The notes under the pieces were generated by a model. It saw only the letters and a list, made by a program, of their open reading frames with translations. It searched no databases and was not told where the DNA came from. Shown here one piece after another: positions 38,313-54,991 of a stretch of DNA of 54,991 nt (its first letter is position 1; every line of letters starts with the position of its first letter). This stretch comes from Actinomycetes bacterium (lineage in GTDB: Bacteria > Actinomycetota > Acidimicrobiia > Acidimicrobiales > RAAP-2): the NCBI GenBank assembly GCA_021822565.1, contig JAKAQM010000004.1, positions 1-54,991 of the forward strand. Reading direction: 5' to 3'. The position numbers and the translations under genes were made by a program.

Positions 38313-39092
38313 TCACGATCCTCGCCTGGCGACGATGTTCAGCCGCACGTAGTCGACGACCGGCTCTCCCATTGCCGCTACCACCCGATCGACGAAGGGT
38401 CGCCGCTCGCCGGCGCCAAGGGTGGCGAGGTGCTCTCGGAGGATGACCGTCGAGAGGAAGTCGGCCAGTCCCGCGGGGTCGTCGAAGCGGGTCGGCTCGG
38501 GGTTCGTCCACACGTCCACATCGACGAACCCGGCGCGTTCGAGCCGCCTCCGGGTCTCGTCACGAGATGCGTAGAGCCAGGTACCCGCACGCTCGACCCC
38601 GAGCGCACGCACGGCGTCGAGGAGCAGGGCCAGGTTGCCCTCGGCGCCGCACTGCGCGACGAGTTGGCCGCCGGGTCGCATGACCATGGCGAGGTTGGCG
38701 AAGAGCCGGTCGTGGTCGGTCACCCAGTGGAACGTCGCGGTCGAGAGCACCGCGTCGACGGGGTGGTCGCGGCCGAGCGCCGACGGCCTGAGGTCGAGGA
38801 GATCGGATCGGACGAACCGGACCCGGTCGTGGTGGCGTGCGAGACGCCGGTGCGCCTCCTCGAGCATCGACGCCGACGCGTCGAGCGCGACGACGTGCCC
38901 GCTGGGCAGCCGATCGAGCAGCTCCTCGGTGACGCGGCCGCTCCCGCACCCCGCATCCAGGACGGTCTCGGCTCCCTCGAGCACCAGGCGGCCGAGCACC
39001 GTCCGACCCCAACGCGCCTGGGGTTCCGAGAGCCGGTCGTAGGCGGCGGCATCCCATTCGCCAGGAGGTCGATCGCTGGACCTGGCGGTCAC
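38313..39092 (-). CDS. Class I SAM-dependent methyltransferase (trans-aconitate methyltransferase-like)
   Basis: WDAAAYDRLSEPQARWGRTVLGRLVLEGAETVLDAGCGSGRVTEELLDRLPSGHVVALDASASMLEEAHRRL...STATFHWVTDHDRLFANLAMVMRPGGQLV; GTGA overlap with add. Confidence 0.88.
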   Translation of the reverse strand: MTARSSDRPPGEWDAAAYDRLSEPQARWGRTVLGRLVLEGAETVLDAGCGSGRVTEELLDRLPSGHVVALDASASMLEEAHRRLARHHDRVRFVRSDLLDLRPSALGRDHPVDAVLSTATFHWVTDHDRLFANLAMVMRPGGQLVAQCGAEGNLALLLDAVRALGVERAGTWLYASRDETRRRLERAGFVDVDVWTNPEPTRFDDPAGLADFLSTVILREHLATLGAGERRPFVDRVVAAMGEPVVDYVRLNIVARRGS

Positions 39093-40138
39093 CGGGCGAG
39101 ACCGAGGTGGTCGTCGAGGTCGCAGAGGAGCTCGCGCCTGCGCTCCCGCGTCGCGAAGCTCGACTCGATCGAGACGCGTGCCACGGCGCCGAGGATCGAG
39201 CGATCCCATCCGAACGTCCGCGCGCACTGCACGTACTCGCCGACGACCGACGAGCCGAAGAGCAGCGGGTCGTCCGTGTTCAGGCTCACCCGCACGCCGG
39301 CCGCCCTGAGCTGCTCGACGGGATGGGCGGCGAGGGACGACACGACGCCGAGCCGTACGTTGGACGTGGGGCAGACGTCGAGCGGCACGGCCTCCGCCGC
39401 GAGCTTCGCGACCAGCGCGGGGTCCTCGACCGCGCGGATGCCGTGGTCCACACGCTCTACGTGCAGGAGCTCGACGGCATCGCGCACCCCTTCGGGTCCC
39501 GACGACTCTCCCGCGTGGGCGCAGGTGTGGAGACCGGCGCTCCGGGCGCGGGTGAACAACGGGGCGAACCGCTGCCCGGTGCGTCCGGCTGCAGCCTCGT
39601 TGCCGTCGACCGACAAGCCGACGACACGGTCAGGTCGGGCCTCGAGCAGCCAGTCCACGAGCGCGGCGGAGTCCGCCGCCGGCTGGGTACGCGTCAGGCT
39701 GAGGCACAGCGCGGTCGTGACCCCATGGTCGGCTTCTCCCGCTTCGAACCCGTGGTCCAGCCGCTCGACGAAGCCGTCGAGATCCGTACGCCACGCGGGC
39801 CAATGAGTCGGATTGAAGATCACGTCGGTGTGGCCGACACCGTTCGACGCGGCCCTGCGGGTGATCTCGTAGGCGATGTGCTCGAGCTGGGTCCCCTCGG
39901 TGACGAGCGCGCAGGCGCGGTCGAGGAACCCGAGGAACTCCGCGAGGTCGCGGAACCGGGGCGCTCCGGTGCCCGGGTCGAACGTGACGCCGGCCCGCGC
40001 CGGGTCGTCCAGCCCGACCGCAGCGGGCGGGACGCAGCCTTCGAGGTGGAGGTGGACCTCCGCCTTTGGCAGGCGCCGGACCCAGCTCGCCTGACGTGTG
40101 CTGGCAGAGAGGCGCTCGGCATCAACGGGCATCGGCAT
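39089..40138 (-). CDS. add: Adenosine deaminase
   Basis: LPKAEVHLHLEGCVPP...HTCAHAGESSGPEGVRDAVELLHVERVDHGIRAVEDPALV...LDVCPTSNVRLGVVSSLAAHPVEQLRAAGVRVSLNTDDPLLFG. Confidence 0.94.
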   Translation of the reverse strand: MPMPVDAERLSASTRQASWVRRLPKAEVHLHLEGCVPPAAVGLDDPARAGVTFDPGTGAPRFRDLAEFLGFLDRACALVTEGTQLEHIAYEITRRAASNGVGHTDVIFNPTHWPAWRTDLDGFVERLDHGFEAGEADHGVTTALCLSLTRTQPAADSAALVDWLLEARPDRVVGLSVDGNEAAAGRTGQRFAPLFTRARSAGLHTCAHAGESSGPEGVRDAVELLHVERVDHGIRAVEDPALVAKLAAEAVPLDVCPTSNVRLGVVSSLAAHPVEQLRAAGVRVSLNTDDPLLFGSSVVGEYVQCARTFGWDRSILGAVARVSIESSFATRERRRELLCDLDDHLGLAR

Positions 40139-53089: not shown

Positions 53090-53162
53090 GCCCCCGTAGC
53101 TCAGAGGATAGAGCGTCGGTTTCCTAAACCGTGCGTCGCAGGTTCGAGTCCTGCCGGGGGCG
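53090..53162 (+). tRNA. tRNA-Arg (anticodon CCT)
   Basis: gcccccgtagctcagaggatagagcgtcggtttcctaaaccgtgcgtcgcaggttcgagtcctgccgggggcg: acceptor gcccccg/cgggggc, D-arm gctc..gagc, loop ttCCTaa, T-loop ggttcgagtcc. Confidence 0.95.
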
Positions 53163-54891
53163 CCGACCAGTCCTCCGCGCGAACCTGCGCGGCACCGACG
53201 GTCGCATCTCTGCCGCCATCGTAGAGGGTGACTGCGACATCGATAGCGCCGTCGGCCGGTTGGTAGACGACGTCGAGCTGCAGCGCGTGGAACAGGGCCC
53301 GTAGTTCGCTCTGGGGCGCCTTGTCGAGCGAGTCGACGAGGATCGGCAGCCGGTCGAGCAACGGGGCGACGTCGGCCAACGTGGGCGCCTCTGTCGCCGA
53401 GGCTCGGGCGAGTGCCACGAGCCGCTCGCGCCGCTCGGCGATGGCGCCCTCCAGCTCGGCCACGCGCTGGCCGACGCGCCGACGGAGCGCAGCGGTCACG
53501 TCGTCGGCTTCGAGGTTGACGAGCTGGCGGGTGAGACGCCGTTCGAGGTCGGTGATCTCGGCTTCGATCTCATGAGCGCACGCCTTCGCCGGTGCCGCGC
53601 GCTCCGGCTCGGCGGCGGCTTCGAGGCAGGTGCGCCAGTAGTCGGTGCGCTCTGGGCCGAAGAGGGCGACGGCGAGGAAGGGGAGGAGCGAGTCGCTCAA
53701 GCGTTGCTCGTTCAGGTACACGTGGGGCGGATGGTCGGCAGGGATGTCCTTCGAGCGCTGATGGGAGGGCTGGCAGGAGTAGTACGTCGTGTTGCGGCGG
53801 TGGTTGCCCCACATGCGCAGTCCGCAGATCCCGCAGCAGAGCAGGCCGCGGTAGAGGTAGTCGCGGCGGGCGGTGGGTCGGGCGACGGTCGCGGGCACGG
53901 CCTGGCGCGACCGTTCGTTGGCCCGGGCGCGTGCCTGGACCGCCTCGTGCTCCTCGCGGCTGACGACGGCGGGGTGCGCGGGCTCCTCGGACCAGATCCA
54001 GGCCTCGGGCGGATTGGTGCGGTTGTGGCCCTTCTTGCGAGCCCTGCGGTTCCAGACCTGGTAGCCGGTGTACTTGGGGTTGCGCAGCACCTCCCACACG
54101 CTGGAGCGGCTCCAGGCACCGCGTGCCGTCGTCGGGTCGACCGGCACCGGTGGCGGGTAGCGGTCGGGGTCGGCGTTGAGGCGGTCGCGGATCTGGAGGA
54201 GCCCCATCCCGCCACCGAGGTACCAGTCGTAGATGGCCCGCACCACCGGGGCGCGCACGGGGTCGAGCTCCAAGGTGCGCTTGTTGATGCCGCGGCTCGC
54301 CTTGTGCGGGTTGGGGTGGTCGTGGGTGACGAAGCGGTACCCGTAGAGGGCGACGCCGCCGGTGTGCCAGCCCTGGCGGGTCGAGGTCTCCTGGCCCTGG
54401 CGGGACTTGACCATCAGCTCGTGGTGGTAACCCCGAGCGATGCCGATGTTCACGTGGCGCAGCACGATGGTGCCGAAGGACTCCTCTTGGGGCTCGTCGG
54501 CCGCGCACAGACGGACACCGGCAGATCGCAGCTCATCTTCCACGCGGAAGGCGACCGAGGAATTGCGTGACAGGCGGGAGATGGACTCCAAGATCACCCG
54601 GTCGAACCGAGCCGGTCGGCGGGCCGCGTCGGCGAGCAGCTCCTTGAGGCCGCCGTCTCGGGGGATCGGGATGTCGAAGCCGGTGAGGCCGCCAGAGCCA
54701 CGGGCTGCGTAGGAGCGCGTGCCGGACTCGATGTCGTAGTAGTGGGCGACGATCCGCCCGCCGGCCTCGGCCACCTGTCGCTCGGCGTTCTGGAGCTGAC
54801 GAGGGAAGGAGAGCGTCGGGTCCTGCTCGTCTTCGGTCGAGACCCTCCCGTACCAGGCATAACGAGGTGACGGACCGGCGGGCGTGGTCAT
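53101..54891 (-). CDS. Large serine recombinase (site-specific integrase), C-terminus antisense within the tRNA
   Basis: YAWYGRVSTEDEQDPTLSFPRQLQNAERQVAEAGGRIVAHYYDIESG...ESISRLSRNS...GYHHELMVKSRQG...LYRGLLCCGICGLRMWGNHRRNTTYYSCQPSH (Zn ribbon); ends APPAGLEPATHGLGNRRSIL*, the antisense translation of the tRNA-Arg. Confidence 0.93.
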   Translation of the reverse strand: MTTPAGPSPRYAWYGRVSTEDEQDPTLSFPRQLQNAERQVAEAGGRIVAHYYDIESGTRSYAARGSGGLTGFDIPIPRDGGLKELLADAARRPARFDRVILESISRLSRNSSVAFRVEDELRSAGVRLCAADEPQEESFGTIVLRHVNIGIARGYHHELMVKSRQGQETSTRQGWHTGGVALYGYRFVTHDHPNPHKASRGINKRTLELDPVRAPVVRAIYDWYLGGGMGLLQIRDRLNADPDRYPPPVPVDPTTARGAWSRSSVWEVLRNPKYTGYQVWNRRARKKGHNRTNPPEAWIWSEEPAHPAVVSREEHEAVQARARANERSRQAVPATVARPTARRDYLYRGLLCCGICGLRMWGNHRRNTTYYSCQPSHQRSKDIPADHPPHVYLNEQRLSDSLLPFLAVALFGPERTDYWRTCLEAAAEPERAAPAKACAHEIEAEITDLERRLTRQLVNLEADDVTAALRRRVGQRVAELEGAIAERRERLVALARASATEAPTLADVAPLLDRLPILVDSLDKAPQSELRALFHALQLDVVYQPADGAIDVAVTLYDGGRDATVGAAQVRAEDWSAPPAGLEPATHGLGNRRSIL

Positions 54892-54991
54892 GGCGAGACC
54901 TCCTCGCCTCCTTCTACCTCCACCTCGCCCACCGATGCGCCCAGGGCCGCCAGCGCCCGGCCCTGGGCGGCGGCGAGCGCCCTGCCGGCCT
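54888..54991 (-). CDS. Partial ORF upstream of and overlapping (ATGA) the serine recombinase; hypothetical
   Basis: Minus strand AGRALAAAQGRALAALGASVGEVEVEGGEEVSP*, stop TGA shared with recombinase ATG; runs off window. Confidence 0.45.
   Translation of the reverse strand, partial: AGRALAAAQGRALAALGASVGEVEVEGGEEVSP

Follow-up and report, generated by a model that had tools for sequence, protein, structure and literature searches.

A serine integrase gene at a tRNA-Arg gene probably spans its attP and exchanges its C-terminal tail on integration

Introduction

The 3' ends of tRNA genes are classical targets of tyrosine integrases. Serine integrases at such genes have been described as rare, examples being AICEs that use tRNA-Leu in Mycobacterium and phage phiRSM1, which uses tRNA-Ser (Ghinet 2011, PMC3218068). 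A closely comparable system is DsiB of the ssrA genomic islands of Dehalococcoides, a serine recombinase whose gene always overlaps attL with its 3' end. Its stop codon falls outside the island, within a neighbouring island or on the strand opposite the RNA gene (McMurdie 2011, PMC3146451). The authors suggested that full function of DsiB may require the circle, or the proximity of another island that holds the 3' fragment (PMC3146451). In the archaeal 'suicidal' integrases (SSV1, pTN3 and pT26-2), attP lies within the integrase gene, which is split on integration at a tRNA gene, and self-disrupting recombinases have been termed exclusively archaeal in a review (PMC8371274). Mycobacteriophages such as BPs show integration-dependent immunity: their attP is part of a coding sequence, and integration at tRNA-Arg alters the C-terminus of the protein and supplies the stop codon (PMC9262239).

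Here, we analysed a large serine recombinase (LSR) gene that runs into a tRNA-Arg(CCT) gene on the opposite strand in an actinobacterial contig, together with its relatives in bacterial and archaeal genomes.

Results

The window, that is, the whole stretch of 54,991 nucleotides analysed, is the entire contig G000:C167 of a 3.0-Mb metagenome bin, so that the element is cut off by the right edge of the contig, with about 100 bp left upstream of the LSR gene. The features at this end are as follows.

53101-54891, minus strand: LSR (integrase), 596 aa when integrated, with catalytic Ser18, from Pfam and homologue alignment
53090-53162, plus strand: tRNA-Arg(CCT), the target gene; the ARAGORN call spans 53090-53164
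54892-54991, minus strand: the sole remaining element sequence upstream of the integrase, up to the contig end
52826-53089, plus strand: host flank 5' of the tRNA, which is 84% identical at the empty site L104 and is partly shared with L102 (81%) and L103 (89%)
53101-53153, minus strand: host (B') side of the junction, comprising the integrase tail and stop, antisense to the tRNA from T-stem to D-arm; the same sequence stands without an LSR in the empty site L104

The ORF has the domains Resolvase, Recombinase and Zn_ribbon_recom, all above the Pfam cutoff, and Ser18 and its neighbouring motif were invariant across 20 homologues; it thus carries the resolvase, recombinase and zinc-ribbon domains and the catalytic serine that define an LSR. 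The encoded end of the tRNA is the discriminator at 53162, two positions short of the ARAGORN end at 53164, and the LSR ends with TGA within the D-arm (53101-53103, TCA on the tRNA strand), resulting in an antisense overlap of 62 nt (53101-53162), exactly as the original prediction had placed it. The C-terminus of the integrated LSR reads WSAPPAGLEPATHGLGNRRSIL before this stop, and the tail is antisense to the tRNA, which supports the further suggestion that the host tRNA provides the stop codon and the C-terminus. A second tRNA-Arg(CCT) in the same bin (contig C139, L002) carries an 87%-identical LSR that is fused likewise.

A scan of bacterial and archaeal genomes yielded 65 related loci. 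Among the 27 close relatives compared at the junction, which are not all independent (L002 and L009 are identical DNA), 18 enter an ARAGORN-called tRNA in the same phase, a further two enter a visibly truncated tRNA and seven enter other, non-tRNA sequence. Their DNA is kept up to CGGAGGACTGGT-NN-G[C/T]GCCCCC and is target-dependent beyond it, the targets being tRNA-Arg(CCT), tRNA-Arg(TCT), tRNA-Arg(CCG) and tRNA-Glu(TTC). This comparison indicates that the overlap is not due to chance and that the tail sequence tracks the target, not the protein lineage. A homologue with 62% identity sits at tRNA-Leu(TAA). Because the frame is fixed within the window LSR family, the antisense strand of the T-arm is translated as G[FL]EP. 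In Streptomyces families that are more distant, the other two phases are used (GAPGRIRT... and RPRQDSNLRPSA followed by the stop), so that the tRNA does not dictate the phase. A third LSR type was also observed at tRNA-Arg(CCT) in other genera (L109 and L110), with its tail in another phase (GAPGRTRT). Two further observations concern the targets. A recurrent non-tRNA target, CGCCCCCGGCAGGGAACCACGCAGATGGGAAAC, which is possibly a decayed tRNA, lies beside the LSR end at L012:3119, L021:7746 and L097:7494, and at L010:1738-1800 only the 3' half of the tRNA-Arg stands beside the LSR, broken off within the anticodon loop and continued by other DNA, as a second insertion of tyrosine type would leave it.

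Congeners were informative about the locus itself. In L104, the tRNA site of the window is present with its flank and empty of LSR, and in L102 a different LSR, 26% identical to that of the window, stands at the same point of the tRNA; one congener (L016/L103) has the same LSR-tRNA arrangement at the same locus. Furthermore, an element 99.88% identical in two genomes (L076 and L081; G002:C22 and G003:C146) has two different tails, which split at the core, with the same 122-bp left flank and different right flanks; the difference on the right may be due to an assembly error or to the core having been rearranged later, not to two insertions. The LSR-tRNA junction of the window is an insertion edge (attL) and not a vertical overlap.

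The far end of the element (P' arm) was found by searching for an inverted copy of the P-arm motif GCGGAGGACTGG, and reads CCAGTCCTCCGA. The attP site is the inverted repeat GCGGAGGACTGG-N24-CCAGTCCTCCGA, the centre of which is a GG core within GGCGCCCCCGGCAGG. This block is identical to the 3' end of the tRNA, from the discriminator through the acceptor strand to the start of the T-stem. The corresponding positions in the window are listed below.

53167-53178, minus strand: P-arm motif GCGGAGGACTGG, the element end inside the integrase gene, (nearly) invariant in the family
53150-53164, minus strand: 15-bp block GGCGCCCCCGGCAGG, common to attL, attR, attP and attB by junction comparison
53154-53155, minus strand: putative crossover dinucleotide GG (integrase strand) at the centre of the attP inverted repeat, placed by the symmetry of the L099 attP and of the rebuilt G002:C22 attP
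53156-53162, plus strand: final 7 nt of the tRNA gene, made up of the discriminator and the remainder of the acceptor 3' strand, delimited by comparison of attP, attB and attL

With the crossover placed at GG, these last 7 nt of the tRNA gene would come from the element. The pattern GCCGGGCCAGTCCTCCGACG gave 20 matches, a few of them not real P' arms, in 13 genomes of the genus, versus four for a reversed-pattern control. The flank of one attR (L195) aligned with the host DNA 3' of the tRNA at the empty site L104 up to the core (E=3e-13), and that of another, from the bin of the window (L198), aligned with L108, L107 and L112 up to the core (E down to 7e-17). In one genome, P is joined to P' in an attP-type junction (L099), GCGGAGGACTGGTCGGCGCCCCCGGCAGGGGCCGGGCCAGTCCTCCGAC, and the G002:C22 element holds both ends, 9,176 bp apart; the genomes compared are metagenome bins, and the attP-type junctions, taken from assembled contigs and with partly decayed int genes, are possibly tandem remnants. 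The core is GG at Arg, and one attR (L199) and one attL (L024) have an AA core with a tRNA-Glu-type block, as would be expected if core and target have to match. Judged from the sequences of these relatives, attP appears to have the layout characteristic of LSRs, in which inverted half-sites flank a small core that also occurs in attB.

A second att copy had been anticipated as a direct repeat of about 28 bp of the tRNA; the copy exists, whereas the search for that repeat gave none, the shared block being about 15 bp, GGCGCCCCCGGCAGG. The far end of the window copy was not found in its MAG and lies off the contig. A free circular copy was sought among phage and plasmid sequences and in IMG/VR, with distant matches only, none of them useful, and the far end was recovered neither by homology with relatives of the tRNA-Leu insertion nor by synteny in Streptomyces. 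CGCGGAAGTCCC, found 5' of other tRNA-Arg copies, was considered as an element end and rejected, as it is a conserved tRNA leader. The original prediction of an insertion edge at the tRNA 3' end, for which comparison of the empty site in relatives had been proposed, is supported by the empty site in L104, the other LSR in L102, the other tRNA targets and the attR ends. It had named vertical conservation without a second att copy as the outcome that would speak against it; an empty site and attR were found.

In an independent case, Streptomyces sp. AJS327 (NZ_SKBR01000001.1), a related LSR lies at tRNA-Arg(TCT), with attL and attR 51.4 kb apart (cores at about 549587 and 601019) and, on the host side of attR, the tRNA terminator known from other Streptomyces. 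The tail of this LSR would go from PRQDSNLRPSA to PRQAPPTRAGQKPPMNSENPLTIRFSTHLPKSRAAK (PRQAPPTRAGQK...RAAK), each with its stop. The 51.4-kb element contains the LSR and conjugation-type and pilus-like genes. In the relatives of the window element, a coupling-type ATPase (TrwB/T4SS-DNA_transf) and a Replic_Relax protein are encoded upstream of the LSR, and the variable cargo resembles type I restriction genes, as judged from translations. These genes of the relatives would fit an element that is integrative and either mobilizable or conjugative; the body of the window element is off the contig.

The integrase frame is open through the core, and the C-terminus therefore differs from one junction to the next. 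At the attP-type junctions, the frame passes the core into P' and ends in a conserved native tail, AGAGPVLRRVVRLSRRLEL-, and the stop: the tail of the L099 P-P' junction is WSAPPAGAGPVLRRVVRLNRRLELP, and that of the rejoined ends of the G002:C22 element is WLAPPAGAGPVLRRVVRLTRRLELG. Translation of these junctions, which had been suggested as a check, thus ended the integrase in the native tail and not in the tRNA tail, and the prediction that excision would change the tail agrees with the attP-type junctions and attR ends, where the attP tail is different and conserved. The native tail has about 20 codons, in place of which integration puts AGLEPATHGLGNRRSIL and a stop from the tRNA antisense strand. 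Native tails end in LELV, LELG, LRLA and so on, with no clear ssrA tag, and the tails of integrated copies vary widely in length and sequence. In an AlphaFold2 model, residues 560-596 had a pLDDT below 50, mostly below 40, and lay outside any fold. Since the tail is predicted to be disordered and outside any fold, its exchange would not be expected to break the enzyme, and this predicted disorder, together with the very different tails of integrated copies, suggests that the tail may be dispensable.

To characterize the native tail at the codon level, we compared 22 distinct P' arms, 15 of which have a TGA stop at the same codon and seven of which have no conserved stop. Past the att half-site, the arms differ mainly at third positions. 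The dN/dS in the integrase frame was 0.57 for the 15 stop-bearing arms, against a median of 1.03 in 1000 permutations, seven of which were as low, and 0.71 for all 22 (23/1000 as low). In the other frames it was about 1.5. Right after the stop, variability rises about threefold. These results, from related sequences and by a modest test, suggest present or past translation of the P' tail, and selection on it. A second, unrelated family of P' arms with the tail HNANLEPLVEGPAISLAARHTKVRRDGYR and stop gave a dN/dS of 0.55 in 23 copies, with 0/500 permutations as low.

Other element families were observed around these sites. The element ends of the second family, with the conserved in-frame tail HNANLEPLVEGPAISLAARHTKVRRDGYR and attP-like inverted repeats, were found across the order (L131-L143, L123, L079:19889 and L139:1477). 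In L014, L022, L071, L079 and L203, the P' arm that follows an LSR end belongs to another family; this holds for some ends of the window-family LSR and of the different LSR seen in L102, as expected for elements stacked at one site, where the neighbour element supplies the tail. This different LSR (26% identical to that of the window; L102, L203 and L079, about 38386-39798 of G001:C222) enters the same tRNA in the same frame. In the genome of the window, G000:C211:7543-11268 (L143, L206 and L211) contains three left ends of two families within 4 kb, and at L080:300-900, CRISPR-like repeats (ggatcacccccgcctgcgcggggagc) adjoin the left end of a relative's element. A tail beginning HNANL was considered as part of a host gene and rejected, as it is the P' arm of another element family; an NHADGK tail was also at first read as a host gene. 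Rfam gave no match in the loci carrying the HNANL and NHADGK tails.

Discussion

We consider it probable, at roughly 87%, that the integrase gene spans attP and that integration swaps a native tail for a tRNA-antisense tail. In this model, the attP core would mimic the tRNA 3' end with the frame running through it; in a circular or tandem form, the gene would continue into the P' arm and end in the native tail of about 20 codons, the circle junction being predicted to read GCGGAGGACTGGTCGGCGCCCCCGG followed by P' and that tail. Integration would cut at the core and move the P' arm with the native tail to the far end of the element, leaving the frame to enter the tRNA antisense strand, where it would gain a new tail and the stop in the D-arm. 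The tRNA would stay whole, because the element restores its last 7 nt. In the genome sequences at hand, attL, attR, an empty attB, attP-type junctions, both tails and the codon constraint on the native tail can each be read; from them we infer the exact crossover, excision in nature and the same P' arm for the window copy.

That the tRNA and the recombinase are merely convergent neighbours with a vertically inherited read-through overlap and no insertion edge would agree with the same arrangement at the same locus in the congener L016/L103. Such a history is so improbable as to be practically discounted, given that the tRNA and its flank stand free of the LSR in L104 and are joined to an unrelated LSR in L102, that the window LSR type also occurs at other tRNAs and that the attR ends match displaced host flank. 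It is also very unlikely that a tyrosine integrase of the element targets the tRNA and that the adjacent serine recombinase is cargo or part of a transposon. The preference of tyrosine integrases for tRNA 3' ends would favour this assignment, but the att boundary lies at the LSR gene end in every copy, attP has the inverted half-sites and tiny core usual for serine integrases, no more than about 15 bp are common to attL and attR, and the core dinucleotide changes with the target (GG at Arg and AA at Glu).

What the exchange of tails means for the enzyme is a separate matter. Recombination may proceed as described with a tail that has no role past about residue 575, the gene simply abutting attP without an earlier stop and using the next one, and the conservation of P' reflecting DNA binding. 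We give this trivial reading an even chance. The predicted disorder of the tail and the widely differing lengths and sequences of integrated tails agree with it, the first 18 nt or so of the P' arm are surely under att-site constraint, and the same reading was offered for dsiB (McMurdie 2011, PMC3146451). On the other hand, the codon structure of P' past the att half-site is present in the integrase frame only (0.57 versus about 1.5), the stop at a fixed codon in 15/22 arms is followed at once by a jump in variability, and a second, unrelated tail family has a similarly low dN/dS (0.55, 0/500). Alternatively, the integrase may be a state sensor, in which the P' tail would govern stability, tetramer contacts or direction and would give way to a tRNA-encoded tail on integration, so that the enzymes of circle and chromosome would differ without a directionality factor, a solution that several unrelated serine-recombinase families would have reached independently. 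Speculatively, the native-tailed enzyme made from the circle after transfer could be the integration form, and the tRNA-tailed enzyme of the integrated state could differ in stability or direction. We regard this state-sensor role as possible, if somewhat doubtful.

The tail exchange itself, in which a bacterial serine integrase would swap its C-terminus on integration and lose a native tail that looks selected, is of interest because serine integrases in tRNA genes have rarely been reported and self-disrupting genes had been called exclusively archaeal, and it makes testable whether the integration state alone sets integrase activity. The swap would also account for the many annotated actinobacterial recombinases that end in tRNA-antisense peptides (GLEPATHGLGNRRSIL, GAPGRIRTCAHGSGGRCSIP and RPRQDSNLRPSA), and such integrase genes would bear the wrong tail when taken from chromosomes for tool building. 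We found no paper on a tail swap in tRNA-targeting serine integrases, within a partial coverage of the literature.

Compared with the known systems, the window family is like DsiB in that a serine recombinase overlaps attL and has its stop outside the element. It differs in that DsiB is CcrB-like, has the partner DsiA and targets tmRNA (ssrA), whereas the targets of the window family are several tRNA genes; moreover, a codon-conserved native tail and an inverted-repeat attP are not reported for DsiB in the section consulted (PMC3146451), whereas the window family shows both tails. AICEs and phiRSM1 are likewise serine-recombinase systems that use tRNA genes, with no overlap or tail swap reported for them in the available text, and AICEs are transferred by a TraB/FtsK-type protein (PMC3218068), unlike the relatives of the window element with their T4SS coupling-type ATPase and Replic_Relax protein. 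In integration-dependent immunity, attP also lies in a coding sequence and integration at tRNA-Arg also changes the C-terminus and the stop, but there a repressor is altered by a tyrosine integrase with a 35 bp core and an ssrA-like tag is lost (PMC9262239), whereas here attP lies in the integrase gene. With the suicidal integrases, the window family shares the attP inside the integrase gene and the tRNA target; those are tyrosine recombinases from which the catalytic part is split off, whereas the window enzyme is a serine recombinase that keeps its catalytic domain whole and exchanges a short C-terminal tail. If the state-sensor role proves true, it would be their bacterial serine counterpart. 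Taken together, a serine recombinase that overlaps attL and is possibly complete only on the circle was already published for DsiB (PMC3146451), and the same logic was known with other enzymes or genes from the archaeal suicidal integrases and mycobacteriophage immunity; what appears new here, at the level of sequence comparison, is the range of tRNA genes targeted, the finding of both tails within one enzyme family, the inverted-repeat attP within the gene and the codon-level evidence for the native tail.
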